From Baffinella frigidus (Eukaryota > Cryptophyceae > Cryptomonadales > Baffinellaceae): a stretch of 38,379 bases of DNA. The notes beneath the pieces were generated by a model. The model searched no databases. It saw only the letters and a list, made by a program, of their open reading frames with translations, and had not been told where the DNA came from. The stretch is taken from NCBI GenBank assembly GCA_026770585.1, contig MU646418.1, forward strand, positions 719,341-757,719, written 5' to 3'. Shown piece after piece: positions 2,121 through 38,379 of this stretch (within the stretch, counting starts at the first letter, position 1; each line of letters starts with the position of its first letter). The translations under genes were made by a program, and so were the position numbers.

Positions 2121-5100
2121 ATGTCAACAGCATTTTCCCCCGCAATGCCAAGGTTGAGGTCGACAATCGCGGAGCGCGCACGAACCCGTCCCCAGGTTTG
2201 CATGCAGGAGACTCAAACGAGATCCACGGCGGCACGCCCTTCTACGAACCCCTCAACCCCGTTCGCTGAGTTGCGAGGCTTCACGGACAATCGCACTCCT
2301 CAAGAAATCGCGGAGCAGGGGCGGCAGCTGTTGCAGGAAGCAGTGAAGCTTTCGCAACAGACTCCCCCCAACATGGCGATCGCGCGCACTCTGCAGGCGT
2401 CGCGCGCAGTGCTCCTCACCGTGTCCCAGCTGGTCCAGCGCTATTCCGCACAGGTACTGCTTCCTCTCGCTCGGCTCTCCCACACGTGCTTTGGGCGCTC
2501 CAGGCGCCGTTGCCCTGGACCGAAAGCATGATGAGGATCACGCTGGCCGGAAAGTGATGGCGCATGACGGATGGCTGGCAGGGAAGGGCACCGACGACCG
2601 AGGAGTTGTTAGCGGACGCGCCAGCCACGATCCGCACACTCTTCGACCGCCTCGGGGCCACGTACATCAAGCTGGGCCAATTTGTTGCGTCCTCGCCTAC
2701 TCTCTTCCCGGCGGAATACGTGGAGGAGTTTCAGAAGTGTCTGGACGACACCGAGCCGGTGAGTGTCTCCGCCGTGCCACCACCGCGCGAGCCACCCTCC
2801 TTTCGACGTCCCTGTGCAATATCCAGGCACCGCCTGCAGATTCCACTATCCAGGGATCGCCTGGAGACTCCACTACTGGCAACGTCCCTGCGCAATGCTT
2901 GATTCCCAGGCGGCGATATGCAGGACGGGCCCGTTGGCACGCCCACGAGTAGGCAGGACGGTGGCAGACGCGCGCGGGGCTGATCGGGCTTGGTTGGGTG
3001 CTGAGCAGGTGCCCTTCTCTGCGATCCAGCGGACGATCCGCGCGGAGCTGGGCAAAGACCCTGCGCTGGTCTTCTCGTTCATCGACCCAACACCTCTTGC
3101 CACCGCGTCCATTGCACAGGTCGAGCACAACCACCTTAAACCTAAACCATGAACCCTCACCCCAACCCCCTAAATGCGAAGCTGGCGTTGAGGCCTGGGC
3201 TGCAACATTTCTCGGCGGCGCGTGCGCGTCCCCTGAGGGAGGCGCCGTGGGGGAGGCGCCGTGGGGGGCGCTCCCTGTACTGGGGCGTGCCTCGGAGTGC
3301 TACGTGCGCGATCGCCCTTTGGGGTACTCGCTCGTGGCTCCTCGCACCTCTACCAGCCCTCAACCTGAGCTCTCCTCGCGGGCGTGCCGCGAGATGAATG
3401 GCGGAGATGAATGGAGAAGATCAACACAGGTGATCAATGGAGGAGATCAATGCAGGAGGGTGTCACCCTGAACCCCAAACTCCCAACCCTGAAGCCTGAA
3501 GACATCTGTGGCAGGTGCATGCGGCGACGCTGCTGACGGGTGAGGATGTGGTCATCAAGGTCCAGGTTGGCAATCCCTACACCCCAAACCCTAAAACCTC
3601 AACCCTCAACCCCCAACCATAAACCCCGAACACTAAACCCGAAACCCTGAACCCTCAACCCTGAAACCTAACCTCAGCTCCCGAAACCTAAACACTCAAC
3701 CCTAAACCCTGAACCCTAAACCCCAAACCCTAAACCCTGAACATGCCATCCTCGCACGTGCCTCTCGCACTCAACCTCGCTCTCAGTCCCGTCCGATCTG
3801 GCACCCCTCCCTGATGCGGCAGGGCGCTCCCAACCAGTGGTGTTAGCACCCTAACGGCCCCGACGGGAACGGTTTCGGGTTGGCAGAAACCTGGGGTGGG
3901 GGCTTTGCTCAAGGCCGACCTTGCTTTCGTGAGCTTCTCTGCCAAGGTCTGCTCCCCCGCCCGCTCCTCCTCCCCTCGATCCATCTCCACTAGCTCCGTC
4001 GCTCCTCTCGCTCCATCCCTCCCTGGATGCATCCCTGCCGTGGCGCCATCCCTGCCCTCGCTGCATCCCGTTTGAGCAGGGCACGTGGAGTCGCGCCCTC
4101 ACTCAGCCGATATCTTGTTGCCGCTGTCGTGGTGCCGTGTTGCCAACCTTGCGCGTTTTGCAAGAACCCATACTGGTTTTGAGAGAGGAGAAACAAGCGT
4201 GTGATGGAACTCTGGCGGACAGTGAAGTGACGGGGGTGGCTGAATGCAGTTCCTGGAGTTTGTGAATCCGGACCTCTCGCGCCTCTCGCTTGGTACACCC
4301 TCCTCACCGCCGTTGCTCGCCGCCGGAGACCTGCCCCGATGTCATCTACTCACACCTGCGGTTGTCGATCCAAACATTTTTTGTCGATCCAAACATTTTT
4401 TTTCCCCCTATCCTCATCTGCAGGGTGCAAGCCAAAACCTAAACCAAGTGTCTCGAATTATTCGGGGGGCGAATGGCTCGATTGATTCGGGGCGCACTGC
4501 TCGACTGATTCGGGGAATCCCGTCTTGCAGGGGACATCATGGGAGACATCCGGACCACGATGCTCGACGAGCTTGACTTCGAGAAAGAGGCCCGGTCTGC
4601 TTCCTTGCATTTCTCTCTCTCTCTCCCGTGAGCTCTCTTTTTCACTTTCGTGCGCGCTCTCTCTCTCCCTCTCTCTCTCTCCCTCTCGCTATCTGGGTCG
4701 CTCTCTCTCTCGCGCGCTCTCTCTCTCTCGGTCGCTCTCTCGCTCAATCGCGCGCGTTCTCTCTCTTTCTGCTCTCTCTCTCTCTCTCTTCAACTTCCCC
4801 CCTCCCTCCCTGTCTCCCCCACGTTGCCAGCAGCCTCCGGCCACGCATGCCAGCCTCGCCCCCTGACCCCATCCTGCTAAAACAGCGTAGCGCCGCGCGA
4901 CTGTCACGCATTTTGACACGCATCACGGCGTGGGCGGCGTTTTCCCGAGGTTGCTGCTCAATTCAATCCCCGAAATGGCGGCGGGCAGGAACATGGCGGA
5001 GTTCCGGTCGTTCCTCTCCTCCTCCAACAACCGCCAAGTCACGGTGCCCCCCCTTCCCACCTCGCCATTGTGCCACACACGAACCTCTACCCGGGTGCAC

Positions 5101-8100
5101 GCGCGAAGCAGGAGCGACGCTTGCTTAGCAACACCGCGCACGCCTGGACAATCCGTCTGCGCCAAGAGGAGTCTCGCGGCGGGGTGTGTGGCGCAGGACC
5201 AGATGAGGCGCTGTCCCGCATCTACGCACACGACCCACAGCAGACCCTGACGCACACATCGCGCGCTCGGGGCAGGTGCCAGACGTGTACCCCCAGGGCT
5301 CTACCAAGAAGATTCTGACAATGACGCGCCTCTACGGGAAGCCGCTGGTGGACCTCGATGCGATTCGCGCCTACACCTCCTCTCCTGAAGACACCCTCAT
5401 CCTCGCTCTCAACACCTGGTAACGACACGGGGGGCATCAAGGTGTATTGACTTGACAAACACCACTGCTCCACGCTGGGGGGGAAAGGTGTGACGAAACC
5501 GGACACCCTTCTGGGGTTATCCGGTCATCCTACACGGGACTATATCTCCAGAACCCTCCGTGCCTCTCAGAGAAACCTCGTGCCTCTCTTCTCCTCGGAC
5601 AGCCCCGCAGCACGATGGCGCCATTTCTTGGAGGCGGTGTGCGTGTGTGCGTGCGGACTGATCGAGAGGTGCCCCCGTTTGGCAGGATGGCTTCGGTAGT
5701 GGGTTGCAGCTCTTTCCACGCGGACGTTCACGCGGGTCTGCCCCCTCCACACACACCTCACCACGACCCCCGCCTATCCCCCCTCCCCTTCTCTCTCGCG
5801 CGCGGTGCTTTGCTCGGGCTGTCGCAGGTGTCTCACCTGGGAGGACGTGCGGGCGATAGAGGCAACGACGTGTGATTGGTGGTGTGGTCTCGTGAGTGGG
5901 GACCGGTGTGCCTCAATCAGGCAACCTCCTGGTGCTCACGGACGGGCGCATCGGATTCATCGACTTCGGCATCGTCGGGAAGATCTCCCCCAAGACATGG
6001 CAGGTGCTGCCCCTCCCTCCGATCCCCACCCCTCAAATCTGAGCCCCTCTGATCAGCGCGCGGTCGTTAGTGCTGTGACGTTGGAGGTGTGCTGTCTGCT
6101 CTGGCGGTTGCCATGCCGTCGCATCACACCCGGTTGTGCGCTCCTACCTGGCATTAGACGTGACTGTGTGGACCATAACGTCATTGTCAAAATCATGGTG
6201 GCAGGCGGTCGAGGGCCTTGCAGAGGGCTTCTCGTTGCAGGATTATGACAAGATGGCTTCGGCACTCGTCCGGTACCCTCCCACACAACCTCGTCTCCCG
6301 AATCTCTCGCTGCTGGTCGAGATCTGGGAGCCTCCCGAAGAACTAGCGCTGGTGCCCCTCCGCCCACCCCGAGTGCTTGCACGCTGCTGCCGAGCCCACC
6401 ACTTCGCAGCCACCGGGGCCTTTACGATTACAGTCTATATAAATGATGCGTACTAGAATCGTGTCCATTTGCATTGGATTGCAACCGACTTTCGCCCGAA
6501 TTTCTGGGCGAAAATTAACTCGGCCGCTTCTAAGTGGGTGCCTGGGTTGCAGCAACGCTGGCGCTCGAGTCATCTTATGGCAGCAGCACACACGCAGGAG
6601 GAGAGTGGATTCATATTTTCTGAAACGGCGGCCATTGACCAGCGGACCGTCAACCCTCAACGAAGCCCGCAACACTCAACCCTCTACGGACCTGACATAG
6701 CGGCGCGTGCGCAACGGAGCAGGCTCCCTGTTTGCAATCGCGGGGACATTTGACATTGCTGTTTCGCGCAGGCTGGGGGCAACATCGGCGGAGGTGGACG
6801 AGAAGGCATTCGCGGCGGACATCCGGCAGGTTATCGAGAAGCTTGAGACACTCGACGTCGACGTCCTCGTCGAGCAGCGGTACCAAACAACCCTCACGCA
6901 AGGACCTAGATTGATTTCGACCTGTTCCCAAAAGTTGATTGTGTACGAAGATTGGAACTTAAGTTAACACAGCCAGGAGGATTCGCTTGGCTAGCAAGGT
7001 AACTCCGAGGTCTGAGAATCGAGGATTTGGTCTTTCAGTGAGGGTGGGTGGACTTCTCCTTCTTTATTGTTCTCGATACAGGTCCGAGAAGGCCCTTTGA
7101 GCCTTGAGGTGAGGGATACAAGCGCTGCGGTATGCTCGCCCTCCGCACCAACCCTCGCCTCGACACTCCCATTCCTCCCCATCAACGCTACCCGCGAAAC
7201 TAGCACTCGTCCCCACCAACCAGCAAGCACTTGCCGTGGTACGCGTTCCCTGCCTCTCCACACCAGCCCTAGGACTTGCCGCCATCCCCTATGTTCTAGT
7301 ACTAGCCCCACAAGTCCGACTGGCAATCTACGAGTCCTATGGGGAAACTCGCACTGGGAATGTAGCGCAACCACGGATAAGCAAACGGTGGCAGCTACGC
7401 ACCTCGGAAGCCTGGGCTGAGCTGAGGTGTGTTGACACGCAACGCATCTCCCGGATCTCTCTAGCACGCCGCGCTTTGACACTGGTGGCGTGCCCAGGTG
7501 GAAACGGTAGAGAGGAAACGTGCGATTCAAACGCATCGAACCCAACATGGCCACCATGCATACCCTTGCGTGCAGGCTCTCAGGATACGCGCTGGCGCTA
7601 AAGCGGTCACGTGGTATTACTGTCCACCTGGCGTAAATCAGTGGTGTTTGACAATGTAGTAAACCTCGTTTCGCCCTCTGGCAGGGGCGAATCAGTGACA
7701 GCAGCCATGCGCGCGGATGACGAGGAGGTCACGCGCATCCTTCTCGATCTCGCCGCCCTCGGCCAGGTCCCCGTAAACCATACACCATACACCACACACC
7801 TTACACCATACACCATCAACCATACACCATACACCACAAACCATACACCACACACCAAACACCATATATCAGAAACCATAAACCATAAACCGTACCCCCC
7901 CCCCTCCCCCTGTTCCTCCTCCTCCTCGTGTTGAATGTATCGGACGGTAAATATGCTGGTGGACCCCCTGCTTCTTCTGCTAACAAGCGCACGTGCGCTG
8001 TCGGTGGCAGAGCTACGGAATCAAGTTCCCGCGCGACTTCGGCCTCCTTGTCAAGCAGGCTCTCTACTTCGACAGGCACGCCCCCCCTCCCACCTCTTCT

Positions 8101-8841: not shown

Positions 8842-10385
8842 TTATGGCGGGAAGAACTTGCGAGCGACGACCGTGCCGAGCCACTCGCCGTAGACCTGGT
8901 AGCCGTTCTCGTTGGGATGCACCCCGTCTACGGATATCACGTTGCCGTGCTGCTCTGCTCACCCCGCCACCCAACCACCCGTCAGCCTCCGCTAGCCACC
9001 GCTCACGTGCTTGCGGAGAGCGTGCGTGCCACCTCCAACGGCCAGAACGAGCCGAGGAGATGGCTGTACCCCACCCGTGGGGCGGCGGATTGAGGGCCTC
9101 CGACATGGCCCTCGCGGGGGGCGTGCCGCGCCTCTTGCCCCAAGTGCTCGCACGCCAGGCACGCCTGCACTCGGCAGAGAGGAAGGAGGAGGTATCGTGT
9201 GCCAGCTTGCGCAAACGAGGGGAGGGGTCGAGGAGAAGTTGGAGGCCAATGGAGAAGAGAAGGAGCGGGAGGGACCGTGGACGCGGCGCCACCAGCCAAC
9301 AGAGGGTTTCGGGATCACGTGGATGTGCTGCTCCTCCCCCGCCAGCTTCAACTGTCAAGCAACACAAACATATCCAACATGTCAGGCACCCCGCACAACC
9401 CCAGCGCGACTACGCGGCTCGCGAGAGAGCGCAGCACACCGCACGTGGCGTGCGCCCTGTGAGCACGCGCGCGGGAAGGTGTGCTTGAGGGGAGGGAGAT
9501 GGCACGCTATCGACGTGGTTGGTGGACGGGGAGCGGTGAGGGTGCGGGGGGGTGGAGAGGGTGTGGTCCGTCTGGGAGTCGGAAGCCTGAGAGAGGGTGC
9601 GGGTGAGGTGAGGGAGGGAGGTGAGGGGGGGGACCTTCTGGGCATCGAAGGCCTCCGAGACGTAAATGACGAATGTTCTGAGCGGCTCTGGGAACCGCGT
9701 CGGTTCCATCGGGAGGAAGGGTAGCACCAGTGAGCACCCCTGCTTCGGGCTTTCGGGTTTACGATTTGGGATTTGGGGTTGGGGGTTGAGGGTTTTGGGG
9801 GTTGAGGTTTTGGGTGAAGGGTTTACGATTCACGGTACGAGGTTTACGGTTGAGGCTGGCGGTTTAGAGTTGAGGGTTGAGGATCTAGGGTTCCGAGCTT
9901 GAGGGTTGAGGGAGGGTGTAGGTTTTGGAGTTTGCAAAATGCGGATCAGGGTAAAGCTTGAGGGGGCAGAGGTTTAGGGTCTGGGATTGATGGATTCAGG
10001 TTCAGGGTTTAGGGTTTATGATTTAGGGTTTGAGGTTTGGATTTAGGGGTTGGGGTTTGGAGTTAAGCGTTTAGGGTTCAGGGTGAAGAGTGTAGAGTTT
10101 GAGTTTGAGGATTGAGAGTTAATGGTTTGAGGGTTGAGATTGAGAGTTAATGGTTTGAGGGTTGAGGTTTTTGGGGTTTGGGGTAGAGGGTTTATGATCT
10201 AGGGTGTGGGGTGTAGGGGTGAGGGGTGAGAGGTTAGGTCATGGGGGTGAGGGTTAGAGGGTTCAATGTTTAGGGTGTAGGGTATAGAATAGGGGTCTAT
10301 GATTTAGGGCTAGGGTTAGAGTTTCATATAAAAGGTACAGGGTTTGAGATTTAGAGTTTAGGGTTTAGGGTACAGGGTAAAGGGT

Positions 10386-10431
<46 letters not shown>

Positions 10432-12195
10432 GATTGAGGGTTGAGGGTTGAGGCTTGAGGGTTCAGCGTGCATCGTTCAGCGTTCAGGGTTAAGAATTTA
10501 GGAGTTTGGGCTTGGGGTGCAGGCATCACGGTTCAGGGTTCAGGGTGTGGGGTTCAGGGTTTAGGGATTGGGGTGTGGGGTTTAGGGTTGAGGCGTCAGG
10601 GTTTGGGGGTCCAGCGTTTTGAGATTCGGAATCAGAGTTGAGCGTGTAGGGTTAAGCGTGTTGTGGTTCTGGGTGTTAGGGGTCTGGGGTTCAGGATTCA
10701 CATGCAAGAGTTTAGGGGTCTGGGGTTCAGGGTTTAGGGTGTCGGGTGTGGTCTCGGGGTTTAGGATTGCAGGGATAAGGGGGTTGAGGGTATAGGACTT
10801 AGCGTGTCGGGTTCATGGACAGGGTTCAGGCTTCAGGATTAAGAGTTTGAGGTTTAAGGTTGAGGCTTTTGGAGTAGGGTTTCGGGTTTAGGGTTTAGGG
10901 TGTAGGGTTTAGGGGTTTGGGATTAGGGTGTGGAGTTTAGGGTTTGGGGTTTAGCGTTGAGTGTTTAGCGGTTGGGGTGTGGGGGTTCAGGTTCGGGGTG
11001 TGGGGTGTGGGGTAAGTTTTACGGCTTAGGGTGTAGGGTTCAGAGTTGATGGTGTATGGTTTATGGTTTATGGTCTATGGTTCATGGTTTATGGTTTATG
11101 GTTTACGGTGTATGGTTTATGGTTCGGGGTTGTTGGTTTATGGTTTATGGTTTGTGGTTCATGGTTTAAGTTTTTTAGAGTTCAGGGGCTAGGGTCAAGA
11201 GCTTAGGGTTGAGGTCATTACTGTTTATGAACTATGGCCCTCGCCACGGGCGATGAGAGGCGGGGAGAGGCAGAGGGGGGGAGGACCGGGCCGAAGAGGA
11301 AGGTGAGGCGGCGGCAGAACTCCTTGATGTCCTTGCCGAAAACCTGCCCACGTCCGGTCAACAAGCGTGATCCCGTCAAAAGGCGGCATCTGACCGGGTG
11401 GGTGTTCTCGCGGTTCCTGCTCTCGAATCAATCAGAGATCCACCTGGATTTAGTTGAGATGACGCACCCATCCGCGCAAAAGGGCCACGAAAATCCTCCC
11501 TGAGGCCCCTGCACTCCTCCCCCGGCGTGCGCCTCAGACGCGGTGAGCACGCGAGCCGCTCACCTACCACGCAGGAGCAATGCAAGGGTGGTGCCGCAGC
11601 CGGTCGCGGGGGAGAGTGCAGGGCAGGGCAGGAGGGGGAGGCGGGGAGCGACCCCGGCGGTGCGGCCCTTCCAGAGGCGTTTGAAGTCGTTGAGGCCGAG
11701 GAGGATCACGCACACGTCGACGTTCACGGGCCCGCCGCCTGTCCCCGCAAATTTGCGCTCCTCGGGGTCGCTGCCGAGCGTGCGCCCCTCCACCACGCGC
11801 TGCAAGTCGGCCATGACGCTCGCCTGGATGGAACGCGCATCGCCCCCGTCGACCCCGAACGACCGCCAAGCGACATCCCGGTGGCTGTGCCCCGAGAGCC
11901 CGCGCGCGAGAGAGTTGGCGATCACGGGCGCCTCGTCGCACCCGATGCCCAGCACCAGTGAGTCGCCGATGACGATCAGCCGCTTCGCCGTGTCACCTCC
12001 CGACTGCGCCTTGCGTTGCCCGTCGAATGGCACGAAGCCCACGGAACGCGCGTCGCGCGGGTGTGGCAGCGGCTCGTATGTGGCTTGAAGCCACGCTGTC
12101 TGAACCCCCACCACGCTCGCCAGCACGCTCCCTCCAGCCAGGAAGGGGTTGCTGGGGTTGAAGATAAACCGCGTAAATCCGGTCATGAAGCTCAT
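8842..12195 (-). CDS. SGNH/GDSL-type hydrolase with N-terminal membrane segment (5 exons, 293 aa)
   Basis: Exons in transcript order: 12195-11653, 11343-11287, 9739-9635, 9351-9283, 8949-8842 (TAA). All junctions are phase 0 and the joined frame is 293 codons plus stop. Block I is VIGDSLVLGIG with the nucleophile Ser. A Gly of block II lies in GVDGGDARS, block III is LLGLNDFKR (oxyanion Asn), and block V is SVDGVHPNENGY with the catalytic Asp and His. Such enzymes hydrolyse esters of lipids, sugars or other small substrates; the substrate cannot be told here. Residues about 1-35 include a hydrophobic stretch (FLAGGSVLASVVGVQTAWL) that could anchor or target the protein. Starting at 12195 puts this near the N-terminus, though the frame is open to 12258. 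The fourth exon's 3' border is the least certain. Intron 2 is a 1.5-kb telomere-like array. Confidence 0.85.
9740..11286 (-). repeat. 1.5-kb degenerate telomere-like array forming SGNH gene intron 2
   Basis: From about 9750 to 11220 the plus strand is an almost continuous run of variants of GGGTTTAGGG/GGGTTGAGGG/GGGTTCAGGG, including about eight near-perfect GGGTTGA units at 10385-10455 and a TATGGTT sub-array at about 11050-11165. The sense strand of the host gene carries CCCTAAA. It fills the intron between exons 2 and 3. Confidence 0.9.
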
Positions 12196-13145: not shown

Positions 13146-16100
13146 ATGCTGATTGCTCCGCCGTCGCGGGAAGGCGTCGATGATGTACTTCGGGCAGTCG
13201 CGCTCAGCCCAGTGGTGAGAGGCGCAGCGCCTGACTCTGTCCCAGTCGCTACAACAACAGCTCTCCTCAATCTTCTCGCGGAATTCTCCAGCAAGACCAC
13301 GATCGTATTCCGCGGCCTGGTCGAGTCCTCTTCATCCGCGCAGCAGCGCTTGATCAACCTCTCGCAGCGCGCGGCAACTGCCGGGGAGAGCATCGACGCC
13401 CTGGAGCGCAGCAGCGACGCGGGTGCCAACCTATCCCGCACGGTGGTCCGGGCGGGGTTTGGGGTCGACTCGGGTCTCGCGGAGCATCTCGAGGAGGAGG
13501 CGCGGCAGGTGCCGAGTGGTCCGTGGCGCACGGGCGCGAGCACGGTGCCCACCTGGGTAAACCCAAAACCCTAATCCGTAAACCCTCCACCCCGAACCCC
13601 AAACCCTAAACCCTCAACCATAAAACCTAAACCCTTAACAATAAAACCAGGCGACTTCGATCCAGACGCATCTGGACCGCTGCCCGCCGTTCCCCAACTT
13701 GGCTGGAGTCGGCGACTACCGGTGAGTCAGGGGGAGGCGTGCGTGTCGCCGCGTGTCGTGTGCGCCTGCAATTGCGGATAGTTTAGCCAGCGTCCATGTG
13801 GCACTCGGTGCACCCAACGGTTGCACCAGCAGCGTGTTGCAGCGCAAGAAACTGGTGCAGGAGTCCTGCATGCGAAATGACGGCAGTGTCTCCGTCGACA
13901 GCTGATGACACTCGAGACACGGTGTTGGTGCGGGTGCAGGCTGTTCTCCAACCCCGATCCAGTGGTGCATCTCTACGATCGGATGGCCGAGCAGTCGCAG
14001 CATGCGCGTGACGCCAAGCCCAAGCGGGTTCCCTCCCCTCCCATCGATTCCCCCCTAGGGCACCCCTCCTCGAACTGTCGTGTGTGCAACTATCTCTCCC
14101 TAGCACCTGGAGGGTGTGAGCACTGCGGGTTCTGTGTCGGGACTGCAGAGGTGCAGATATTCTCAGTGCCTAGCGTCCGCGCTGCGTTGTCGGGCAGGGG
14201 GGGGGGCATGGATTTGCATCCAGGTGACCCCACCTGAGATTTGCAAGGAGGTGACCGGAGATGTCTCGTGGGGTGCAGCAAAAAGGGTCGAGGCAACGCA
14301 AGACAGAGGTCAGGTCCGACGCGACAAAACAAGGCCTTGAGCTGTACCGCCCCGCCCGCCCGGATGTAGCTAGCTTTCACTTGCGGCGTTTTCTTGCAAT
14401 GCGTTTCACACGCGGGGTTGTCGGGCGGCACAGCACACCGTGTCAGGAGTGGGGCGCGTCACGACCATGTGCCACCTTCATCTCCGCGAGAGTATCAATT
14501 AATTAATTTCGGCGCGCAACAAAATTTACTACACAAACGCGGTATTATTACTAGTATAACCCAATCGTGTAGTAAATTTTGTTGCCCACAAGCAATTAAT
14601 TCATACTGTCGCGGAGATTAACCTTGTCCGTGTGTCCAGGCACAAGAAGAAGACAGACGACTTCTCGGAAATCTCCTTCTCGAACCCAGGTCGGTGCCAG
14701 ATTTCCCGCTTTGGCCACCGATGTTGAAACGTTGGACGGCGGGTAAGGCAAAGGTTTACCATGTCTGCAAACAGATAGATGGCGGGCCTGTTGATCTCGA
14801 TCCGAGCTCAACACACGTTTCGCTCCTGCAGATGCGGTGAAGATCGGGGGGGCGAAGGCGGTGTGCATGTTCCAAGTGACTCCTGAGCTGCGGCAAGACA
14901 TGCGCCGCTGCCTGGTCCGCCCACCCCCCTCCACCTGCCACCACCACTCTCGCTCAAGGCCCCGAGGCCGCCTTCCTCCCCCGCACCTTGCCGCTGCAAC
15001 GCTCCTTGTTTCCCAACCCTCTTCCACCCCGCACCTTTATCGCTACGCGTACCGCACCCGTCGAGCTTGTTGGATCCTGACCTGGGCGGGTGGCGCGCAC
15101 GACGCGCAGCGGCTCGACGGGTGCATCGCGACCCCCTACATCGCCGCCCCCCCCNNNNNNNNNNNNNNNNNNNNNNNNNNNNNNNNNNNNNNNNNNNNNN
15201 NNNNNNNNNNNNNNNNNNNNNNNNNNNNNNNNNNNNNNNNNNNNNNNNNNNNNNNNNNNNNNNNNNNNNNNNNNNNNNNNNNNNNNNNNNNNNNNNNNNN
15301 NNNNNNNNNNNNNNNNNNNNNNNNNNNNNNNNNNNNNNNNNNNNNNNNNNNNNNNNNNNNNNNNNNNNNNNNNNNNNNNNNNNNNNNNNNNNNNNNNNNN
15401 NNNNNNNNNNNNNNNNNNNNNNNNNNNNNNNNNNNNNNNNNNNNNNNNNNNNNNNNNNNNNNNNNNNNNNNNNNNNNNNNNNCCCCCCCGCCTCCCATGC
15501 CCGGTGCGGGAAGCGGAGGAGCGCCCCCACCGCCTCCGCCGCCGCCCTCCGCGGCCAGAGGGGGGGCTCCGGCAGCGCCGCCACCACCGCCCGCGGCGGC
15601 CGCTGGCGGGATGGGGCTGCCGTCGGGCGACCAGCTGATGGCAGGGCGCGCGCGGCTGAATGCTGCACCCAACGTCGAGCGCGGAGAGGTGCTGAAGCCG
15701 GCCGATGAACGCACCTCCCTCCTCGACGAGATCCGCAACGTCTGCCCCCTACCTCCCCCCTATCCTGTCGGACACCATGCCCTCCTCCCCCGCTCCTGCT
15801 ATTTGTCCTGGCTGGAGCCATCAAGTGTTGATGCATTTCGTATCTCAACTGCGGTGCACGGCCGGGTGGCCTCCACCTCATTGCACACACCCGCACTGTG
15901 CACCCCCGCACCGCAAACAGTGCTGGGAGGGAGGTGGTGGGGTGGCGTGTTGGCTGGCAGGGGTGTGGTGGTGGGGGGCGCTGACTCGAGGCAGCGTGAT
16001 GTCACGCGGGGGGTCGCTGAATCGCGGCATGGCTACGCGGTTGGCAGGCGCGGCAGAAGGGCAAGCTCAAGTCCGCGGCCGCGCGCGAGATCGCTGTCAA

Positions 16101-16230: not shown

Positions 16231-16454
16231 GCTGTCGTCTTTCTGCTCCTCGCCGCTCGCCCCAGGTCGCGTGCCTTGACCACCCCACCCCACCCCACCC
16301 GCCACCCGCCTCATTCCGTGCAGTCTGTGTACAGAGAATGCCTGGGATTCAACTTTTGCGGGTATGGTCCTGTGATGCGCGTTTGACTGTGTTTCCTCTG
16401 ATGCGCGTTTGACTGTGTTGCGATGCGATGTGGGCAAGAGGTGTGTGTGCAACA

Positions 16455-16575
16455 AACCCTGAACCATAAACCATAAACCCTGAACCCTAAACACTGAATC
16501 CTAAACCCTGGACCCTGGACCCTAGACCCTAGACCCTGGACCCTGGACCCTGGAACCTAAACCCTAAACCCTGAC
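16455..16575 (+). repeat. telomere-like array downstream of SCAR
   Basis: CCCTAAA, CCCTGAA and CCCTGGA units form the plus strand here, including a sub-run of CCCTGGA/CCCTAGA. This is the sense orientation for the SCAR gene that ends at 16230. Confidence 0.85.
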
Positions 16576-17103
16576 CCATGTTTCGGCCTGCGCCTCCCTC
16601 GAGGCGCAGGACGCAGCACTCGGCGCGGCAGGGCCTCTCTGTGCTGTGATCCCGCGCTGCTGTCCCGCAGGGCTCTCGCACAACGACCTCATTGATTCCA
16701 ACAAGTTTCAACAGAAAGAGCACTCTCAATCTGCAATCAATGCTCTTTCAGGTGGGCGGGATCTGCAGCGGGGGTGCGTCTGGCGTGAGACCCTCGGGAC
16801 GTGAGTGTGATGCCAACAATGTGCGGGTTTGGTGAGAGAAGCGCCGCCATGTCGCCAGCATGAGACGCTGATGTAAGCATGAGACGCTGCTGTAATACAC
16901 TTTTTGTACTAGCACCCCGCCACCACGGTGTTCGCATGGACTCTGGATGCACGCGGAGCTAGAACTGTGCCCATGCTTCGCGGCTTCTCGCCTGCAGCTC
17001 TGCCACACTCCCGCACCATAGCAGTGTACAAAAAACAGTGCACCGCGCAGCACCCACACAGCCGCACCGCCCGCACCAACGCGCCTGTAACTCGTGCAAC
17101 CAC

Positions 17104-22708: not shown

Positions 22709-22954
22709 TTCCCGGATCCTGAACAAAAGATCCACCCTGGAGGGACCTTGCGGCCAAATGCCGAATAACCCTTTATCGCAAAAGTTGACAGTATTTGTGC
22801 CACTAAAATATTGATAGACCTTTTTGTACCAGATCTATTCATCACGGGGCCGCCGGATCACCGCCACATCTCGGGGGTTGACTTAAGAATGCTCAAAATA
22901 CCATAATGTTCCATCCAGGGTGGGACAGGCAAGAGCTGGCGTGTGGGGGAAGAG

Positions 22955-25900
22955 ATGGGCGACAGTGTTGTCACGCTGCTTGTGCTCACATCTGGGCGGG
23001 ACCCTGCCCTCGCCGCGATGGAGCTCGGGGCCGTCTGCAGCATGGCTGGATCGCGCCTGCTGGACTGGCGGTCAACTGGCAGGATCCTGGATCCCGGGTC
23101 CGAACAAGCTCTCTGCCAGCGCTTTCACCCGTGCCTACTGTCGTGCCGTTTTGCTGCTGTAGGAATGTCAGGCGGAGTCGATCAAGTCAGTGCGACCGAA
23201 AATGCGCTCGGGGCTGCTCTCGGGCGCTGTGTCCTCACGCGTGCGGCATACACCGACGTTGTTGAAGGATCTAGCTTGAAAAACGTGGCGGCAAATGGTG
23301 CGGCCGAGCCAGACAGATTTGTGCTCGTAGGCCGCAGAATGACGCCGAAGCAGGAGAAGCTGCTTCGCCGCAAAGTATGGGCAGGCGGGGAAACAGCCGA
23401 AGGTGGAGGTGGGGAGTCTGGAGACGACGCAGGCCAGGTCGGCAAACAGCATGTGGTGGTCGACATGCGGGGGCTAGCGGGTGGTTTGGAGGCTTCGTGC
23501 GCGGGGCACTCGTGGTTCTCCGGGCGGGTTTTCGCGCGCGGTGGGAATCGCGAAGCGACGCGTCGCGCCACGAAGCGAGACCACGACGCGAGTGCGGGAT
23601 GCAGCGAGGGGGCGGACGCGATTTCTCGAGGTGACGCGACTGAGGGCACCACTCGGATGGACGGGATCCGGGCGTGGATGACGAGCAACTGCGCGCAAGT
23701 GGGGCCAGGCCACTCGGTGATCGATCCCTTCGCTGGCACCGGCGCGATGCTCGCCGCTGCTCGCGACCTCGGCGCCTCTCTCGTGGTACGCCCTACTCCG
23801 CTGGTCCCACTCCTCTGCTCCCACTCTTCTGCTCCCACTTCTCTGCTCCCACTCCTCGGTTCCCACTTCTCTGCTCCCACTCCTCTGGGTCCACTCCTCT
23901 GCTCCACACACAGCTGCCTCGACTTACGAAGGCTTAATCCGGGGACATGTTTAATTAAAATAAAATGGATCCCTATTTGTTCATAGGAGTTAGACGAAGG
24001 TCAATTGGGGCCCTAAATCAATTTGATTAGGGCCAGAATCCGGTTTGATAGGACTTTTTCTTTCAAATTAAACATGTTCCCGGATGAGGCTGCACTCGGG
24101 ACATTCTCCTGTGCCACACCGCCTTGCGATCGACTGCCAGCGGTTGACGCGACTGACTCGCCATGCCATGCACCTACAGCTGGGCTCGGACGTGGTGCAC
24201 AGCTCAGGGGCAACGATCGTCAGCGATCTCGTGGGTGCTCCCGTCTGGAGAGGACCCTTCGACGCGGTGCAAGCCTGGCCCCCGATGCGGAAACCTGTCG
24301 GGATACACCCTAAATCTAACTTAACCTGGACCCTGAACAAATCAAAATCTTCACCCTGAGGAACGATTATATGTCATTTTAATTCGTGAAATACGTGATT
24401 CAACGTCACTTATTGACTTTCGAATCGGGGCAGATTTTCTTGGAAAACGCAACGTTTAAGCCATAAAAAAAAATTGAGACCGTGGATCTTTCAAAGGTGC
24501 AAGGGAATCGTGTCGAGACGTTGTTTGAATTTTTCATTTGCGTTGGGAAAGCTCAACACAGTTCAATAAAAAACTCGACGTTTCATCAGGTTTCACATAA
24601 TTCGAGCTCTCAAAGTGACCGTAAAACGTTTTAGGGTGACTTTGAATTAAGAATTATGTATTTGTCGACACAAAGAATCCGGCATGAGCCCTAAAAAATC
24701 AAACTACAAAATCCAAACCCCCAAACCCTGTGAACCCTCAAACCCCAAACCCTGAACTCTACACCCTGAATCCCAATCCCGCCAACCATTCAATCCTGAA
24801 CCCCAAACCCTAATCCATAAGCCCTGAACACCCAAAACTGAACCCTGGTCCCTAAACCTTCAACCTAAACCCTCAAATCTAAACATCAACCCTAAACCCC
24901 AAAACCGAACACCCACACCCAAAACACTCAACACTAAAACCAAATCCTTTGAAACACAAAAAAACTAAACCCCAAAACCTAACACCCAAACACTAAACAC
25001 TAAACACTGAACACTTGACCTTGAAACCTAAACTCTCAACACTAAACACTAAAACCCAAATCCTAAACTAACCGCAAACCATCAACCCCAAAACTCCAAT
25101 CCCTAGCCTATACACGCTGAATCCCAAACCCGCTAACAATCCCATCATAAACCCCAAACTCAACACGCTGATTAAAAAAACCACGCTGAATTCAAAACCT
25201 CACCCTGAACCGTAAACACCCTAAACCATAAACCCTAAACCCTGAACCCTAAACCCAAACCCTAAACTCTACACCTAACACCTAACAACTAAATCCTGAA
25301 AAAACAAAACTTAACACTAAACAATAAGCACTGGACACAAAACATTACACCCTTATCACTAAACCCTAACACACAAATCCTACGAATCCTACGGTACACT
25401 ACACAAACCCTCGCTGAATCACAAGCCTTCCAATCCTTGACCTCCAACCCTGGGATATTAGCCTTGAAGCATCAATTCTAAGCCCTAAACTCTTACCCTG
25501 AACCCTAAACCATAAACCATGAACCATGAACCATAAATCCTAAACCCTACACCCTGAACCCTAAACCCTACACCCTGAACCCTAAACCCTGAACCCTGAA
25601 CCCCAAACCCTAAACTCTGACCCCTGCACCCTGAACACTGAACAAAGAACACTGAACCCCCAACCCCAAACCCCAAACTCAAAACCCTTAACCCTAAACC
25701 CTAAACCCTAAACTCTGAACCCTACACCCTAAACCCTAATCACTGGACACTGAACACTGAACACTAAACACTTAACACTAAACACTAAACACTAAACACT
25801 GAACCTAAACCCTAAACTCTAATCCCGAATCCCTGAACCCTAAATTAAAACCCCTACACCATCAACCCTTGATCCTGAACCCTAAACCCTAAACCCAGAA

Positions 25901-28900
25901 CCCCAAACCCTAAACCCTACACCCTCAACCCCAAACCTTAAACCCGAAACCCAAAACCCGAAACCCGAAACCCGAAACCCGAAACCCGAAACCCGAAACC
26001 CAAAACCCTAAAACCTAAACCATAAATCCTGAACCCTTAACCCTAAACCCTAAACCCTAAACCCTAAACCCTGAACCCTAAACCCTTATCCTAAACTCTA
26101 AACCCCAAACCCCAAACCCCCAACCCTAAACCCTTAACCCTAAACCCCAAACCCTATACCCTAAATCCTACACCCTAAACCCTAAACCCTAAACCCCAAA
26201 CCCTAAACCCTTAACCCTCAACACCAAACCCTAAACACTGAACACTGAACACTGAACACTGAACACTGAACACTGAACACTGAACACTGAACACTGAACC
26301 CCCTAAACCTGAACCCTAAACTCTAAACCCTAAACCCTGAACCCTAAACCTTAAACCCTTAACCCTATACCCTAAACCCTAAACCCTATACCCTAAACCC
26401 TAAACCCTAAACCCGAACCTCTGAACCCCAAACCCCAAACCCTAAACACTAAACACTAAACCCTACACACCAAACCATAAACCGTCAACCCACAACCCTG
26501 CACCATGAACCCTGAATCCTCAACCCTAAATCCCAAACTCCAAACCCCAAACCCTAAACCCTGAACCTTTAACCCTCATCCCTAATCCCTCAACGCAAAC
26601 CCTCAAACCTCAACACCACATCCTAATTCCTACACACTGCACCCTAAAACCCCAACCCCAAACCCAAATCCGAAATCCTCAAACCTAAACCCCAAACCTT
26701 GCACCCTCCACCTGAAAACCTAAACCCTGAACCATCAATCCTCAACCCTGAACCCTTCACCCTAAACCCCAACCTCTACACGCTGCATCCCAAACCCTCT
26801 GATCCTCAAACCCCAACACCAAATCCCAACCCCTAAACCCCAAACCCTAAACTCTAAACCGTAAACCCCAAACCCTTACCCCCAAAGCTTCAACGCAGGT
26901 GGTGTGTGACCCGCCGTACGGACGGCGAGCAGAGCAGGTGGGTGGGTGCGGCGCCGCAATCCTCACAGCGCTTCTCGCCTGGAGCGCGCGCGTGCTGGTG
27001 TTGCAGGGGCGCGTGGCGTTCTGGTGGTGGGAGGAGGCGGCGGGCGCGGCTGCCGAGACCGTCGCAACCATCCTCCGAGAGAACGCGCTTGATCAGGACT
27101 TGCGGCTCGTCGGGTGGGCGGGGGACGATGCGGGGATGGGGGGGCACCTGCGGGAGGTGGCGTGGCGGAGGTGCCTGATGGTGTGCGAGCGCCACGCGCC
27201 CCCTCCCGCGGGGCGGTGCTGCGGCGTGGTGCGCGCGCCCTGGCCCGCGGGGCTGCGCGGCCCCTTCGTCAAGGACGCGGACGCTGCGGGGGGCGGGCCC
27301 AGCGAGGGGGCGGGTCCGGCGTTCGCGGCGGCGTGGCGCGGGGACGTGGCGATGCTCAGGGAGATGGTCGTGACGCTGCGAGGGGCTGCGGAGGGGGGGG
27401 TGCAGGTGCTTGATGCGCCTGATGAGCAAGGACGCAGGCCTCTGTTGTTCGCTGCTGGTCAATACCCCCCCACTTCGTGTCCGCTCGCACCTACTTTTTG
27501 TACGCCCCTTTCCGGTCCAAACTCCCGCCCTGGCAGGCCGAGTGTTTTTGTGTTTCCAATCACTGGCGCTGCCTGGAGAGCGAGGGGGGTACACCGCCCT
27601 TTTGCATGATGGTGTGAGCTTGACTCGGTCGTATCCTATGCTCGTTGAATGACGCGCCATGCTCGCTCGTGGGTGGCAGGGTACGGCAAAGTGGAGGCCG
27701 TGGAGCTGCTGTGCGACGAGGCGGGCGCGGCAGTGGACGCCGGGGCAGGCACCGAGCACGGCACCGCCTTGATGCGCGCCGCCCGCTTCGGACATGCGCC
27801 CGCGGTTCAGGCGCTGCTCGCACGCAGAGCGGATCCCCGCGCCACTGACTGCCAAGGTGCGCACCCCACCTCTCAAAGACATGTTTTTTTTGAACGGACA
27901 CGGCCGCTGTGTGTGCACGCCCGCCGAGGCTGTGTCTAGGCGGGACCTAGAGCGGTGTGTTTCGCGCAGCGAGGCAGGTGCGGGATGCTTCGTTCATGTC
28001 AGGACGGAGTCCTGGGACGGGTCGGGTAAGGAGACCGGGTGTCTTGTGTATCCGGGTGAGATCCTTGCTCGAGGTGGGCCCATCCCAGGACTCAGTCCTG
28101 ACAGGTGGCGATGAGTGGTGGGTGGCAGGCACGAGCGCGACAAACCTCGCGGCAATGTTTGGACATTTGGCCGTGCTTCAAGTCCTCCCTCGAAGCATCG
28201 TCGGCGCGTCACACCTCACCGCCGCTACTCCTCTCCACCACGTCTGCACCCTCATGCCCACCACACGAGAACGCTAGAGGGGCCTGCTTATATGTGGGGG
28301 GGGGGGGTTGTGAATATATGTACCAGGATAAGGTAAAGTAACCTCGTGCCCGGCACGTGCCACTCCACCGCCGCTACTCCTCTCCACCACGTCAGCACCC
28401 TCATGCCCAGCTCTGCATCTTTTAATCCGGGTTCCGCATTGAATATTGTCAGATACGCTGTGTACTGGAAGGTGTTTACGGAGTCCCGACTGAACGTAGT
28501 CAATCAGGATCCGCTACTCCTCTCCACCAAATCAGCACCCTCGTGCCCACCTCTGCATCTGTCAATCAGGGCTCTTCCAGACCCAGCACCAGTGCCCCCA
28601 TACTGTTAGATGTTCTGACTACTGGCGCGTGTTTACGGAGTCCTGGTCTGAACGTAGTCAATCAGAAGCCCGGATTAATAGAGCAGCGCTAAGATTTCGC
28701 GATGCTCCCGGACGATGTCCCGCTGTAAGTGCAACGCGACAATGCCCTGCCAGGACCTGCAGGCTGATTTCTGAGGTGGCTTGGCAGGCCGCGCAGTGGG
28801 GAATGACCAAGTGCATCTCCCTCATCCTCGACGCGGCAGAGGCCCTGGCCCTCGCGCCGGCCGCGCCCACGGCCTCGCCGCCACTACCGGCTAGCGCCGG

Positions 28901-29390
28901 GAGCACGTCGCTCGAGCAGCTGGTCAATGCGCAGGGTGCCCCGCGCAGGTAGGAGCACCGCCCCCCCCCTTCCCCTCGTGTACAGCACCCTGGTTGCGGA
29001 GGTTGTGAGAGGTGACGCAGGCTGACAGACCGGTCACCTGAAGAGGGGTGTTGCAGTGTCCGTCTATGTTGGGAGCATGACGGAAGAGACCTGCTTGATC
29101 CACGACGTTTCCCCCTGCTGTGCTCCAGCGTTCTCGAGTGCTACGCTTCTCTCTCGCTCCCTCTCTCTATCTCACCTGAAAGACCTAAATGGCTGCTCGG
29201 TGGCAGGCGGACTGCGCTGCACTTGGCCGCGCGCTTCGGGCATGCCGAGTGCTGCGCGCTCCTGCTCGCCCGCGGGGCGGACGCGTCCCTCTGTGATGCC
29301 GACGCCGCGACGCCTCTCGATGTCGCGAGGGCCTCCCTCAGGCCCCTGTGCGTCCAAGTCCTCGAGCAGGCGAGCGGGCCGGTAGACTGA
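22955..29390 (+). CDS. TRM11: Trm11-like tRNA (guanine-N2) methyltransferase fused to C-terminal ankyrin repeats
   Basis: Exons supported: 22955-23785, 24180-24266, 26899-27457, 27680-27856, 28129-28181, about 28776-28948, 29207-29390 (TGA). The first exon has an N-terminal segment like Trm11 (TLLVLTSGRDPALAAMEL; RCVLTRAAYTDVVEG), WFSGRV, then methyltransferase motif I DPFAGTGAMLAAARDLGA. Later exons give VVCDPPYGRRAE (motif IV DPPY catalytic loop) and LRLVGWAG...GHLREVAWRRCLMVCER, the Trm11 C-terminal region. Trm11 with Trm112 makes m2G10 in tRNA. Without a stop the frame continues into ankyrin-type repeats: WRGDVAMLREM, GRRPLLFAAGYGKVEAVELL, GTALMRAARFGHAPAVQALL, ATNLAAMFGHLAVLQ, AAQWGMTKCISLIL, RTALHLAARFGHAECCALLL. 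The 28181-28776 interval may hide another exon. The start could lie upstream in an unseen exon. Confidence 0.83.
23930..24086 (+). mobile_element. inverted-repeat element with nested hairpin in TRM11-ANK intron 1
   Basis: The left end AATCCGGGGACATGTTTAAT pairs with ATTAAACATGTTCCCGGAT at the right, about 155 bases apart. Inside lies a perfect palindromic hairpin GGCCCTAAATC(AATT)TGATTAGGGCC-type segment at about 24009-24034, plus an internal ATCCGG copy. It is AT-rich relative to flanks and non-coding. Confidence 0.8.
24267..26898 (+). repeat. 2.2-kb telomere-like array in TRM11-ANK intron 2
   Basis: The intron separates FDA from VVCDPPYG in the catalytic motif. From about 24690 to 26885 it is an essentially continuous series of CCCTAAA variants on the sense strand, with homogeneous sub-arrays of CCCGAAA (25941-26000) and CACTGAA (26235-26298). 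The first 420 bases (24267-24690) are AT-rich and unique-looking. Confidence 0.92.
28000..28107 (+). mobile_element. terminal-inverted-repeat element in TRM11-ANK intron 4
   Basis: The left end GTCAGGACGGAGTCCTGGGA and right end TCCCAGGACTCAGTCCTGAC match as inverted repeats over about 24 bases with two mismatches. Each end contains its own small palindrome (GGACxxAGTCC). The element is about 105 bases and ends 22 bases before the acceptor at 28128. Confidence 0.8.
28222..28675 (+). repeat. tandem repeat of about 145 bases, three partial units, in TRM11-ANK intron 5
   Basis: CCGCTACTCCTCTCCACCA recurs at 28222, 28371 and 28511 (spacing about 149 and 140). Each is followed by CAGCACCCTC/CTGCACCCTC. 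GTGTTTACGGAGTCC and TGAACGTAGTCAATCAG recur near 28468-28506 and 28627-28665. The units are diverged and non-coding. Confidence 0.8.
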
Positions 29391-30104: not shown

Positions 30105-30264
30105 TCGGCACTTCGGGGATAGCTTCAGATGGGTGCAAGTCAGTGTTGAGCTTACCAATCCGAGGTCGAAAGGGGCGCTGCAATGCACACCGTATCTACT
30201 CCATTTTGAAACCCAGAGTTGCAAGAGGTGCCAATCCCACGTCCAGCTGTGTGAAGAGGTTTGG

Positions 30265-31930
30265 TTGAGGGTTGAGGGTTCAGGGTTGAGGGTTGAGGGT
30301 GAAGGGTTTGGAGTTAACAGTTTAGGGTTCTGGGTTCAGGGTTTAGGGTTTGGAGTGCAGGTGTTTGGGTGTAGGCTGAAGGCTTTATTGGGTGTGGGGT
30401 GTATTGTTTAGGGTGTAGGGTTCATGGTTGTGGGATGTGGTGTTTGGAGTGTAGGGTGTAGGGTTTATGTTGAAGGGTGTTATAGAAAACGGTTTATTGT
30501 TTAGGGTTTAGGGTTTGGGGGTTGGGGTTTAGGGTTCAGGGTTTGGGGTTTGGGATTTGGGGTTTAGGGTCTGGGGTTGAGGGTTGAGGGTTGAGGGTTG
30601 AGTGTTTAGGGTTGAGTCGACGGTTCAGGGTTTGTGGTTCAGGGTTGAGGGTTTAGGATTTAGGGTGGAGTTCAGGGTGTAGGTTTCAAGGTTTAGGGTG
30701 TAGGGTGGACGGTGCAGGGTTTAGGGTGTAGGGTGTAGGGTGTAGGGTGTAGGGTTTGGGCTTGGGGTTTAGGGGTCAGGGTCAACGGGTTACGGTCTGG
30801 GTGGTTTTGGGTCTGGGGGTTAGGCTTTAGGGTTGAGAGTTTAGGGCTCGGGAATTAGGGATGAGGGTTCAGGGTTTTGGGTTTAGGGTTTAGAGTTCAG
30901 GGTTCAGGATGTAGGCTGTAAGGTTTGGGGTGTAGGGTTTAGGGTTCAGGGATTGAGGGTTAGGTTTTCGGTCAACGGTTCAGAGTTTTGGGTTTAGGGA
31001 TGGGGGGTTAGGTTTCAGAGTTTATTGTTTAGGGATTGGAGTTTAGGTTTTAGGGTTGAGGGTTCAGAGTTTCGGGTTTACGTTTCGGGTTTGTTTATGG
31101 TTCAGGGTTTGGGGTTTGGGGTTTGCGTTATAGGTTTTAGGGATTAGGGTTTATGGTCTAGTTTCGGGTTTCGGGCTGAGTTTTAGGTCAGGGTTTAGGT
31201 TTTAGGGAGGTTTTGGGGTTCAGGGGTTTGAGTTTCAGGTTTAGGGTTCAGGGATTAGGGCTCAGGAATTAGGGTGTAGTGTTCAGGGTTTTTGGTTGAG
31301 GGTTTTGGGGGTAGGGTTAACGGGGTGGGCTGTAGAATTTGGGGTGTAGGCTGCAGGGTCGAGGGATTAGGGTTTGAGGATTTAGGGTTTAGGTTGATTG
31401 TTTAGATTTTCGGGTTTAGTTATTGGGGTTTTAGGGTTTAGGTTTTAGGGTTTAGGGTTTATGGTTTAGTTGTTGGGGTTTAGGGTGTATTATTTATGAT
31501 GTAGGGTTTGGTGTTTCATAGAGTTAAGCGTGTAGGTTTTTAGGGTTTACAGGGTTTAGGGAGTAGGGTGTAGGTTTTAGAGTTAACGGGTAAGGTTTTT
31601 TTGTTCAGGGTTTTGGGTTTAGGGTACAGGAGAGGGTTTAGGGTTTAGGGTTCAGCGTTGAGGGTTTAGATTTGAGTGTTCAGAGTTTGAAGTATTCGGG
31701 ATGTTTAAAGTTTCAAGGTTTTGGATTTTAAGGTTTCGGGATTAGGGTTTCGGGGTTCGGGTTTAGGGTGTATGGTTTCTAGTCTAGCGTTGAGGTTTCA
31801 GGGTTTAGGGTTTAGGGTTTAGGGTTTAGGGTCTAGGGTTAAGAGTTTAGGGTTTAGGGTTTAGGGTCTGGGGTTCGGGGTGAAGGTGCGGGGGTTGAGG
31901 GTTGAGGGTTCAGAGTTGAGGGTCCAGAGA
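30265..31930 (-). repeat. 1.7-kb telomere-like array (TTTAGGG on plus strand)
   Basis: A nearly continuous array of GGGTTTAGGG variants lies downstream of the minus-strand orphan gene at 31993-32478. No exon was recognised in it. By the orientation rule seen at the other arrays, it would be transcribed on the minus strand, perhaps as an intron or 3' part of that gene. Confidence 0.88.
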
Positions 31931-31992
31931 CTCAGGGTCCAGGGTGCAGGGCCGGGGAGGAACATGGTGCATCACATTGGGCATTGTCGAAT

Positions 31993-32478
31993 TCAGTTGT
32001 CGACGCATTCCAGCAGCTCAGCGTGAAGATCACCCCCGTCGGAATTGTTGGGCGAAACCGCCGCCATTCCTGCGTGTGCGCTGCAGGCGGAAGCCACGCG
32101 GCTGAAGGTGTATTCCGGGTCCCAGACACCATCGCCGCCTTCTTCATCCACGGGAGCAAGCGCGGAGGTCCCCCCGTCACGCTCATCGTTGGGCGCGGCA
32201 CCACTGCTCGAAAGCGTCCGGAAGAGCTGATCGTCAAACGCGACGACAACCTCGGCATGCTCCTCCGAGAGACGTCTCTTGGACAGCGGGGGCTCCGAGA
32301 CCCAGACACCATCGCCGCCTTCTTCCTCGCCAAACTGTTCGATCGTGGCGTGGCGCTTCGCGAGCTGGGCGCGCAGGCGGTCCCGCACGGAAAGGGTTCC
32401 ACCCCCGCCACTTTCGCTGGGAGCACCTGCGCTTCCGCTGGACCAGGCGCCCGCCGCTGCTTCGCCGGCCGTGTCCAT
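31993..32478 (-). CDS. unrecognised acidic protein with internal EEGGDGVW duplication (161 aa)
   Basis: A single-exon frame runs from ATG (MDTAGEAAAGAW) to TGA. Residues about 30-45 are basic (SVRDRLRAQLAKRHATIEQF). Then EEEGGDGVWVSEPPLSKRR occurs, and about 60 residues later DEEGGDGVWDPEYTFSR, so the motif is duplicated. At DNA level a 25-base phrase containing CACCATCGCCGCCTTCTTC occurs twice, near 32122 and 32301. The protein is Gly/Ser/Ala-rich and probably disordered. I know no family for it. The frame is open a little upstream but has no earlier ATG. A GT donor at ELLEC would allow more exons beyond 31993, in or past the repeat array. Confidence 0.55.
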   Translation of the reverse strand: MDTAGEAAAGAWSSGSAGAPSESGGGGTLSVRDRLRAQLAKRHATIEQFGEEEGGDGVWVSEPPLSKRRLSEEHAEVVVAFDDQLFRTLSSSGAAPNDERDGGTSALAPVDEEGGDGVWDPEYTFSRVASACSAHAGMAAVSPNNSDGGDLHAELLECVDN

Positions 32479-33375: not shown

Positions 33376-33412
33376 AAGGACCAGCCAACGGCTCAAATGC
33401 CAGCCAAGAAAT

Positions 33413-36730: not shown

Positions 36731-36941
36731 GCGCTGCTTCATATACTGAGTGTATGTACATACGGGAAGTCATATATTCCCATTTCTCTATATCTCAAGT
36801 TGCCGAGTTGACTTGTCGTTGCACCGAGTTTTGGGGAGACGCGTTGAGACGCGTTCCAAGGATCACAACAAGCGCGGCGATCTGGTTCTGCATTAGTCGC
36901 CAACGTGTGTCGGCTGACATCAGCCGCATCGTTTCCTCGCG

Positions 36942-37581: not shown

Positions 37582-37669
37582 GTATGCCCCCCCACGCACT
37601 CACCAACATGCTCTCGCCGATCCGTCGCGCCCTGCCCACCCCTGCGAGATAAACCAGCGCCTGCTTCCT

Positions 37670-38379
37670 AAGCCTTAAACCTCATTCTACACCCTGATTC
37701 CCAAACCCTAAAACCTCATCAATATACCCTCAATCCTGAACCCTGTGATCCAAATCCACAACCCTGAAAACTAAACCCTCGATCCTGGATCCTCAACCCT
37801 AATTCCCAAACTCTACACCCTACACACTACACACTAATCACCAGACACTAAACACCAAACAATAAAAACTGAATACTAAACCACAAACAGCAAATACTGA
37901 AGGCTAAATAATTAAAACTAAACATTACAAACTAAACATAAAACATGAAACCTTAAAATCTAAATCCCGAGCCCTGAACCCTATACTCTATACCCATACC
38001 CTACACCCAAAACCCTGAACTCTGAACCCTAAACCCTAAACCCTGAACCTTGCACCCTGAACCCTGAACTCTGCACACTCAACCCTGAACCCTGATCCCT
38101 ACAACCTAAGCAGTGAACCCGGAACCTTCAACCCTACACCCTACACACTACACACTGAACACTAAATACTAGACACAAGACACTAAACACTGAACACTGA
38201 ACACTGAACTCTAAACACAAGATACTAAACACTAAACAACAAATACTAAATACTGAACACTGAACAATGAATGTTCAACATAAAAATTAAACTACGCAAT
38301 GTAAATTCTCAACCCTGAAACCTGAACCCTAAACCCTAAATCTTAAACCCTGAACCCTAAACCCTGAACCCTAAACCCT
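37670..38379 (+). repeat. telomere-like array in AP-4 mu intron 3, to the window edge
   Basis: From about 37675 to the end the sense strand is CCCTAAA/CCCTGAA/CACTAAA variants, with sub-runs of ACACTAAACA type. It would form the intron after the exon ending near 37581. Confidence 0.9.

Follow-up and report, generated by a model that had tools for sequence, protein, structure and literature searches.

The stretch of DNA analysed here (the window) comprises 38,379 nucleotides at positions 719341-757719 of a 792,726-base contig and belongs to the nuclear genome of the cryptophyte Baffinella frigidus or of a closely related strain. The spliced protein of its ABC1K gene shared 97% identity with a protein annotated in Baffinella frigidus, and the exons matched Baffinella protein P0001. 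The genome of Baffinella sp. CCMP2293, which is termed conspecific with B. frigidus CCMP2045, comprises 534.5 Mb with 41.1% repeats (PMC9756366), and words beginning with "intron" or "telomer" are absent from the part of that paper's text available here. Gene models were built with a small two-strand gene finder that used a strand-neutral non-coding model and Pfam-anchored exons as seed. ABC1K, SCAR, TRM11-ANK, and AP-4 mu were placed on the plus strand and SGNH and La on the minus strand, and Pfam concurred on the strand of five genes (ABC1K, SGNH, La, TRM11-ANK, and AP-4 mu). In SGNH, a weak GDSL lipase match (PF00657), just under the Pfam cut-offs, was found on both sides of the array-bearing intron, and in TRM11-ANK, a methyltransferase match (PF01170) straddled the junction of the intron at 24267-26898. 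SCAR gave no Pfam match, and its strand was taken from sequence relatives only. Further plus-strand exons, which by eye resemble the C-terminal domain of AP-4 mu, were located past the window end (locus L038).

The gene finder joined TRM11-ANK to AP-4 mu, which makes the array at 30258-31951 an intron of a plus-strand gene. We read the joined model as a false fusion because a stop of its own closes the ankyrin frame and AP-4 mu starts at a separate ATG; if the join were real, this array would be a counterexample to the orientation described below. The introns of the joined chain were excluded from later intron counts. TRM11-ANK itself (22652-29390; +) combines a TRM11-like methyltransferase and ankyrin repeats within a single gene model, a putative fusion predicted by that model. 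Between TRM11-ANK and AP-4 mu, a frame of about 160 codons, complete with ATG and stop, is open on the minus strand (31993-32478), where the opposite strand is also open; a Pfam search gave no match for the minus-strand frame.

The window was scanned by cyclic CCCTAAA/TTTAGGG scoring, and stretches with a score of 18 or more were taken as tracts. Twelve tracts totalling 7.3 kb were found, and the best of five order-1 shuffles scored 13.8. On the plus strand, ABC1K contained two weak C-rich tracts (3134-3182 and 3465-3500) in the intron at 3120-3514, a CCCTAAA array (3572-3742) 6 nt from the donor of intron 3566-3886, and a CCATACA array (7771-7899) 4 nt from the donor of intron 7767-8010. An array filled the SCAR intron (13558-13648; +), a 2.2-kb array (24683-26896; +) ended 2 nt from the acceptor of the TRM11-ANK intron at 24267-26898, and the array following the window's final AP-4 mu exon ran from 37667 to the window end at 38379 and beyond (+). 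On the minus strand, which is the sense strand of SGNH and La, C-rich arrays were present in the SGNH intron 9688-11567 (9742-11237) and in the La introns 19268-19669 (19290-19644) and 20835-21251 (21030-21247, 4 nt from the donor). The sense strand was C-rich in every one of the nine tracts that modelled genes carry in their introns, including the CCATACA array, and in the tract behind the final AP-4 mu exon (10/10), and array orientation tracked the host gene as gene strands alternated along the window. The other two arrays were found outside the genes: one at 16454-16579 (C-rich on the plus strand), approximately 225 nt past the end of the SCAR model, and a 1.7-kb array at 30258-31951 (C-rich on the minus strand, G-rich on the plus strand), taken as outside genes and located approximately 870 nt beyond the TRM11-ANK stop (29388-29390) and approximately 40 nt beyond the stop of the minus-strand frame.

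These results bear out the first-pass annotation, which had described intronic CCCTAAA-type arrays in six genes, each with a C-rich sense strand; its intron ends concurred with the gene models, and its list of six genes stood, with the two arrays outside these genes having been omitted. Its agreement of CCATACA arrays with the strand rule holds in a single case, the ABC1K array at 7771-7899, and the ABC1K intron 3120-3514, which it had counted as an array intron, contained only the two weak tracts of 49 and 36 nt. The SCAR intron, given as 13557-13650 and modelled here as 13545-13650, is indeed an array intron with a different start, since relative P0122, which reads STVPTWATSIQAHLDRC, points to 13560 as the probable donor. 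With this donor, the intron is 91 nt long, consists of array throughout, and begins GTAAACCC. The estimate that random insertion would give the observed agreement once in 128 times is correct for eight independent introns; counted by gene, the result is 6/6 (p=0.031).

The arrays are degenerate and mutually different. Of the five large true arrays, four have CCCTAAA as their most frequent unit, and the leading unit was CCCTGAA in the AP-4 mu array and CCCCAAA in the La array at 19290. As in interstitial telomeric repeats, tandem TTTAGGG/CCCTAAA units are found at an internal position of the contig; we call them telomere-type because TTTAGGG is presumably the cryptophyte telomere unit.

Exact (CCCTAAA)3 occurred 27,288 times on the forward and 25,832 times on the reverse strand of the 382-Mb assembly, whereas the control, the same pattern read backwards, gave 14 and 13 matches. 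At G000:C1 (L010-L017, approximately 186-190 kb), array clusters that look intergenic by eye were observed, many of them on the same strand over kilobases. CCCTAAA arrays are also borne by IMG/VR contigs L001, L006, and L007, listed as viral; L006 and L007 show identical array spacing and may be one element.

Splice-like motifs within 30 nt of an array were counted as raw matches and as distinct sites, the latter tallied by hand. TGGCAGG was found 70 times (55 distinct) behind C-rich arrays, 44 times (39 distinct) behind G-rich arrays, 46 times (36 distinct) before C-rich arrays, and 41 times (34 distinct) before G-rich arrays. The corresponding numbers for CAGGTSCG were 129 behind C-rich arrays (73 distinct among the 100 matches listed), 17 (13 distinct) behind G-rich arrays, 49 (42 distinct) before C-rich arrays, and 24 (19 distinct) before G-rich arrays. 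TGGCAGG is in modest excess in one of the four cells above a large chance background, and the excess of CAGGTSCG is larger. As a donor-only motif, CAGGTSCG was poor, since several of the 13 C-type sites turned out to be acceptors within arrays, and when donor sites were scored on one side only, C-type and G-type sites did not differ (4/13 vs 5/19 at a score of 5 or more). Comparisons of CA and CCATAAA repeats were set aside because of too few sites.

Host strands were called from the coding signal, with arrays masked and the two strands compared, at all 94 distinct sites where an array lies no more than 30 nt upstream of the acceptor-like TGGCAGG (8 of these sites contain some N). The two-strand comparison was devised after one-sided donor scoring had shown no difference, since the opposite strand gave the better reading at several G-type sites. 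As a result, 26 sites were called C-rich sense, 4 were called G-rich sense, and 64 were uncalled, a ratio of about 6 to 1 and a clear excess of one orientation relative to the host gene; since genome-wide sites were picked near splice-like motifs only, the bias applies to such positions. The first-pass annotation had asked for this genome-wide check and had named a near 50:50 split as evidence against the rule; because 26 sites stand against 4, the result lies away from such a split. Directly behind the acceptor, a coding score of 5 or more was reached at 21/55 C-type and 2/39 G-type sites (Fisher p=0.0002), and a score of 3 or more at 27 C-type and 6 G-type sites, with pass rates of 4.7% and 8.6% for AG null sites within the 94 loci. 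The gene finder, run with masked arrays, called 23 C-rich and 3 G-rich sense sites at a score of 5 or more (one "both" dropped) and 40 and 18 at any score (two "both" dropped, 34 with none); these scorings share the 94 TGGCAGG loci and are not independent of one another. An enlarged set, which added donor sites (19/19 G-type, 13/42 C-type) and 20 C-type CAGGTSCG sites out of at least 73, gave 39 against 5, with 102/146 uncalled. Because the added sets are unbalanced, 26 against 4 is the figure to trust.

Ten exon peptides were compared with Pfam. Scores exceeded the curated cut-off for WD40, peroxidase, and one ankyrin exon and fell short of it for another ankyrin exon and an EF-hand, and all five matched exons were accompanied by C-rich sense arrays; the remaining five of the ten gave no Pfam match, including both G-rich-sense candidates submitted. 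In tiles chosen by position (approximately 45 kb), 20 tracts were found, of which the five in segment C9 were left unused, the gene calls there being too weak. A Pfam-confirmed DEAD-box helicase had five C-rich tracts in its model and one G-rich tract called as exon at its 3' end. A Pfam-confirmed acyl-CoA-synthetase-like gene, which spans a gap in the sequence examined, had six C-rich tracts, two of them outside modelled exons, and three G-rich tracts, one of them mixed; the tile gene models are from the masked-array run, and some exons cross masked arrays. Within the latter gene (L028-L030; G000:C15, approximately 410065-421254), a short exon, VPADGETMGEVMMRGN, is apparently present in about four copies. 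The three G-rich sense tracts of this gene, together with the G-rich array right behind a likely donor at locus L167, contradict the claim of the first-pass annotation that the sense strand is always C-rich; what stands of it is the strong genome-wide bias. The observation is therefore confirmed in this form: intronic arrays are mostly one-way relative to the gene, and the bias is strong and not absolute.

Of the 11 introns with modelled ends, 8 have a splice site no more than 15 nt from an array end (p=5e-5 under random placement), namely 5/7 introns in the window and 3/4 in the helicase. SCAR, AP-4 mu, and the fifth tract of the helicase were excluded from this test, and four of the 11 introns are helicase gene-finder predictions from the masked-array run. 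Two introns look like array throughout, the SCAR intron with its re-placed donor and one helicase intron (354/358 nt array). Many of the 100 C-rich arrays listed lead directly into ACCAG/G-like acceptors, and when 20 sites with CAGGTSCG behind an array were scored as exon starts, 10 reached a score of 3 or more and 7 a score of 5 or more. That the arrays hug splice sites is new here, and the earlier suggestion of an intron-like tract gains support from the extension of arrays to splice sites. One of the CAGGTSCG-behind-array sites looks Rab GTPase-like by eye, and at L148 and L149 exon-like stretches of approximately 45 and 34 nt are flanked on both sides by CCCTAAA arrays.

The two strands of the arrays differ sharply in splice-type dinucleotides: in the 12 window arrays, the C-rich strand contains 42 GT and 78 AG, and the opposite strand 1059 GT and 753 AG. 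Upstream of acceptors in array-free introns, AG density was 1.5 per 100 nt in the last ten nucleotides counted, 3.5-3.8 up to -43, and 5.5-5.8 beyond. AG created by variant units was seen 11 times in the TRM11 array (44 expected), 10 times in the AP-4 mu array (20 expected), and 20 times in the array outside genes (34 expected). By a matrix built on 46 array-free introns, strong sites in flipped arrays would number 4.8 per kb for donors and 2.6 per kb for acceptors; ordinary introns, with 7.8 and 3.3, contained no fewer. TTTAG may be a poor acceptor here because 50/54 modelled acceptors in the window are CAG and none is TAG, although the model favoured C at this position from the outset. Modelled donors in the window are mainly G/GT, and their consensus is weak. 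A general intron skew was rejected as the cause of the orientation: array-free introns are near G/C balance (skew -0.054; 29 negative, 21 positive) and are T-rich on the sense strand, in contrast to the A-rich arrays.

From the orientation bias near splice-like motifs and the contact with splice sites, both of which were observed, we infer as the best explanation, held tentatively, an orientation filter acting on intronic arrays at pre-mRNA processing. The one-way orientation is most likely due to the fact that the opposite one would bring splicing-type and G-rich signals into the RNA. Each CCCTAAA unit includes CTAAAC, which resembles a branch point. A sense CCCTAAA array, having no GT or AG, would let the spliceosome cross it and use the first AG behind. 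In contrast, a sense TTTAGGG array would offer TAG/G, G/GT, and a G-run per unit, which could compete with the true sites, most strongly where the array meets a splice site, as in most tested arrays. This filter is consistent with an orientation that follows alternating gene strands, with the sites called genome-wide, with the CAGGTSCG excess behind C-rich arrays, with the GT- and AG-poor sense strand, with the splice-site contact, and with AG depletion near acceptors. Several results count against it: matrix-scored splice sites would be no denser in flipped arrays than in ordinary introns, the AG avoidance in units is uneven and also present in the array outside genes, TTTAG may be a poor acceptor in this genome, one-sided donor scoring gave no C/G difference, and G-rich sense arrays occur. 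Selection against G-rich nascent RNA, in which G-quadruplexes or stable R-loops of sense (TTTAGGG)n RNA impede transcription or damage the genome, is possible and somewhat less probable. Flipping the 12 arrays would bring 58 G4 motifs onto the sense strand, compared with 0 at present, and runs of three or more G in array-free introns number 178 on the sense and 261 on the antisense strand, a mild point in its favor that goes with their slightly negative skew. The first-pass proposal of selection against a G-rich sense strand is retained to this extent; for G-quadruplexes as the specific cause, the G4 motifs of array-free introns (2 sense, 3 antisense) are too few to judge. Against this reading, short non-telomeric G-rich repeats lie on the sense strand of introns at 3237-3267 and 20375-20437, and CCATACA, which is GGG-free on both strands, obeys the rule in its single case; three CCATAAA arrays and one TTTATGG array before CAGGTSCG are too few to decide.

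The orientation could also be a mark of origin, if C-rich-sense arrays landing in genes turned into introns or intron ends, with splice sites forming at their edges; we consider this rather unlikely. Such arrays would be nearly spliceable: they lack internal GT and AG, repeat a branch-point-like motif with a 7-nt period, and would need one or two changes to yield an acceptor. The array ends adjoining splice sites, the two array-made introns of SCAR (with its re-placed donor) and the helicase, and the listed C-rich arrays abutting acceptors, with half of the scored exon starts at 3 or more, fit this origin, but most array introns include much non-array sequence, and unaided intron birth might favour the G-rich strand because GT and AG are ready-made there. 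It is similarly doubtful that new introns still arise from telomere-type repeats in this cryptophyte, with the strand rule being a mark of birth beyond tolerance. A strand preference set by transcription during insertion or growth, for example through telomerase or fill-in acting where transcribed DNA has broken, would need no selection and predicts bias within genes and none relative to the contig, in line with the exact (CCCTAAA)3 counts on the two strands; alone, it leaves the array contact with splice sites unexplained, and we regard it as improbable. Chance or the choice of examples is very improbable: the window has just six genes, and the TGGCAGG counts carry a large background (55 and 39 distinct vs 36 and 34 in reverse order), but the strand calls at the 94 further sites argue against it. 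Whichever applies, a simple repeat with a nearly fixed orientation relative to transcription amounts to a natural experiment in the tolerance of the spliceosome and of transcribed DNA. As the genome contains tens of thousands of exact (CCCTAAA)3 matches, intron birth, interference with splicing, and a cost of G-quadruplexes or R-loops could be distinguished from one another.

Introner elements consist of near-identical units with set ends and can form an entire intron. As with introners, the repeat found here is able to be a whole intron; in contrast, the arrays are degenerate, and most introns are only partly array. In two introns the array appears to reach both intron ends, and in the 8/11 introns noted above one array end lies within 15 nt of a splice site. 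Introner-like elements are near-identical copies with target-site duplications, whereas the copies here are degenerate and vary from array to array. Among the titles and abstract openings listed in a literature search, no report on the host-strand orientation of intronic telomere-type arrays was found. Plant telo boxes share a AAACCCTA-type motif near genes, but they occur as single motifs that are enriched in 5'UTRs and about as frequent as expected in Arabidopsis introns (PMC3022908), whereas long arrays are present here; the words "orientation" and "strand" are absent from the part of that paper's text available here. Plant and animal interstitial telomeric repeats are internal tandem telomere-type arrays, as here (PMC6410037, PMC8621592); their titles and abstract openings contain no statement on host-gene strand, whereas the splice-near arrays tested here are mostly intronic and in one orientation. 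The closest parallel among known effects is the orientation bias shown by transposable elements in mammalian introns close to exons (PMC3088655, PMC1794541), which likewise involves intronic repeats with strand bias (PMC3088655). There, the bias is stronger near exons, predicted splice sites in LTRs near exons are fewer and weaker, and the authors infer purifying selection (PMC3088655). However, the mammalian elements are mobile and underrepresented near exons (PMC3088655), whereas in this alga a simple telomere-type repeat touches splice sites with its ends.
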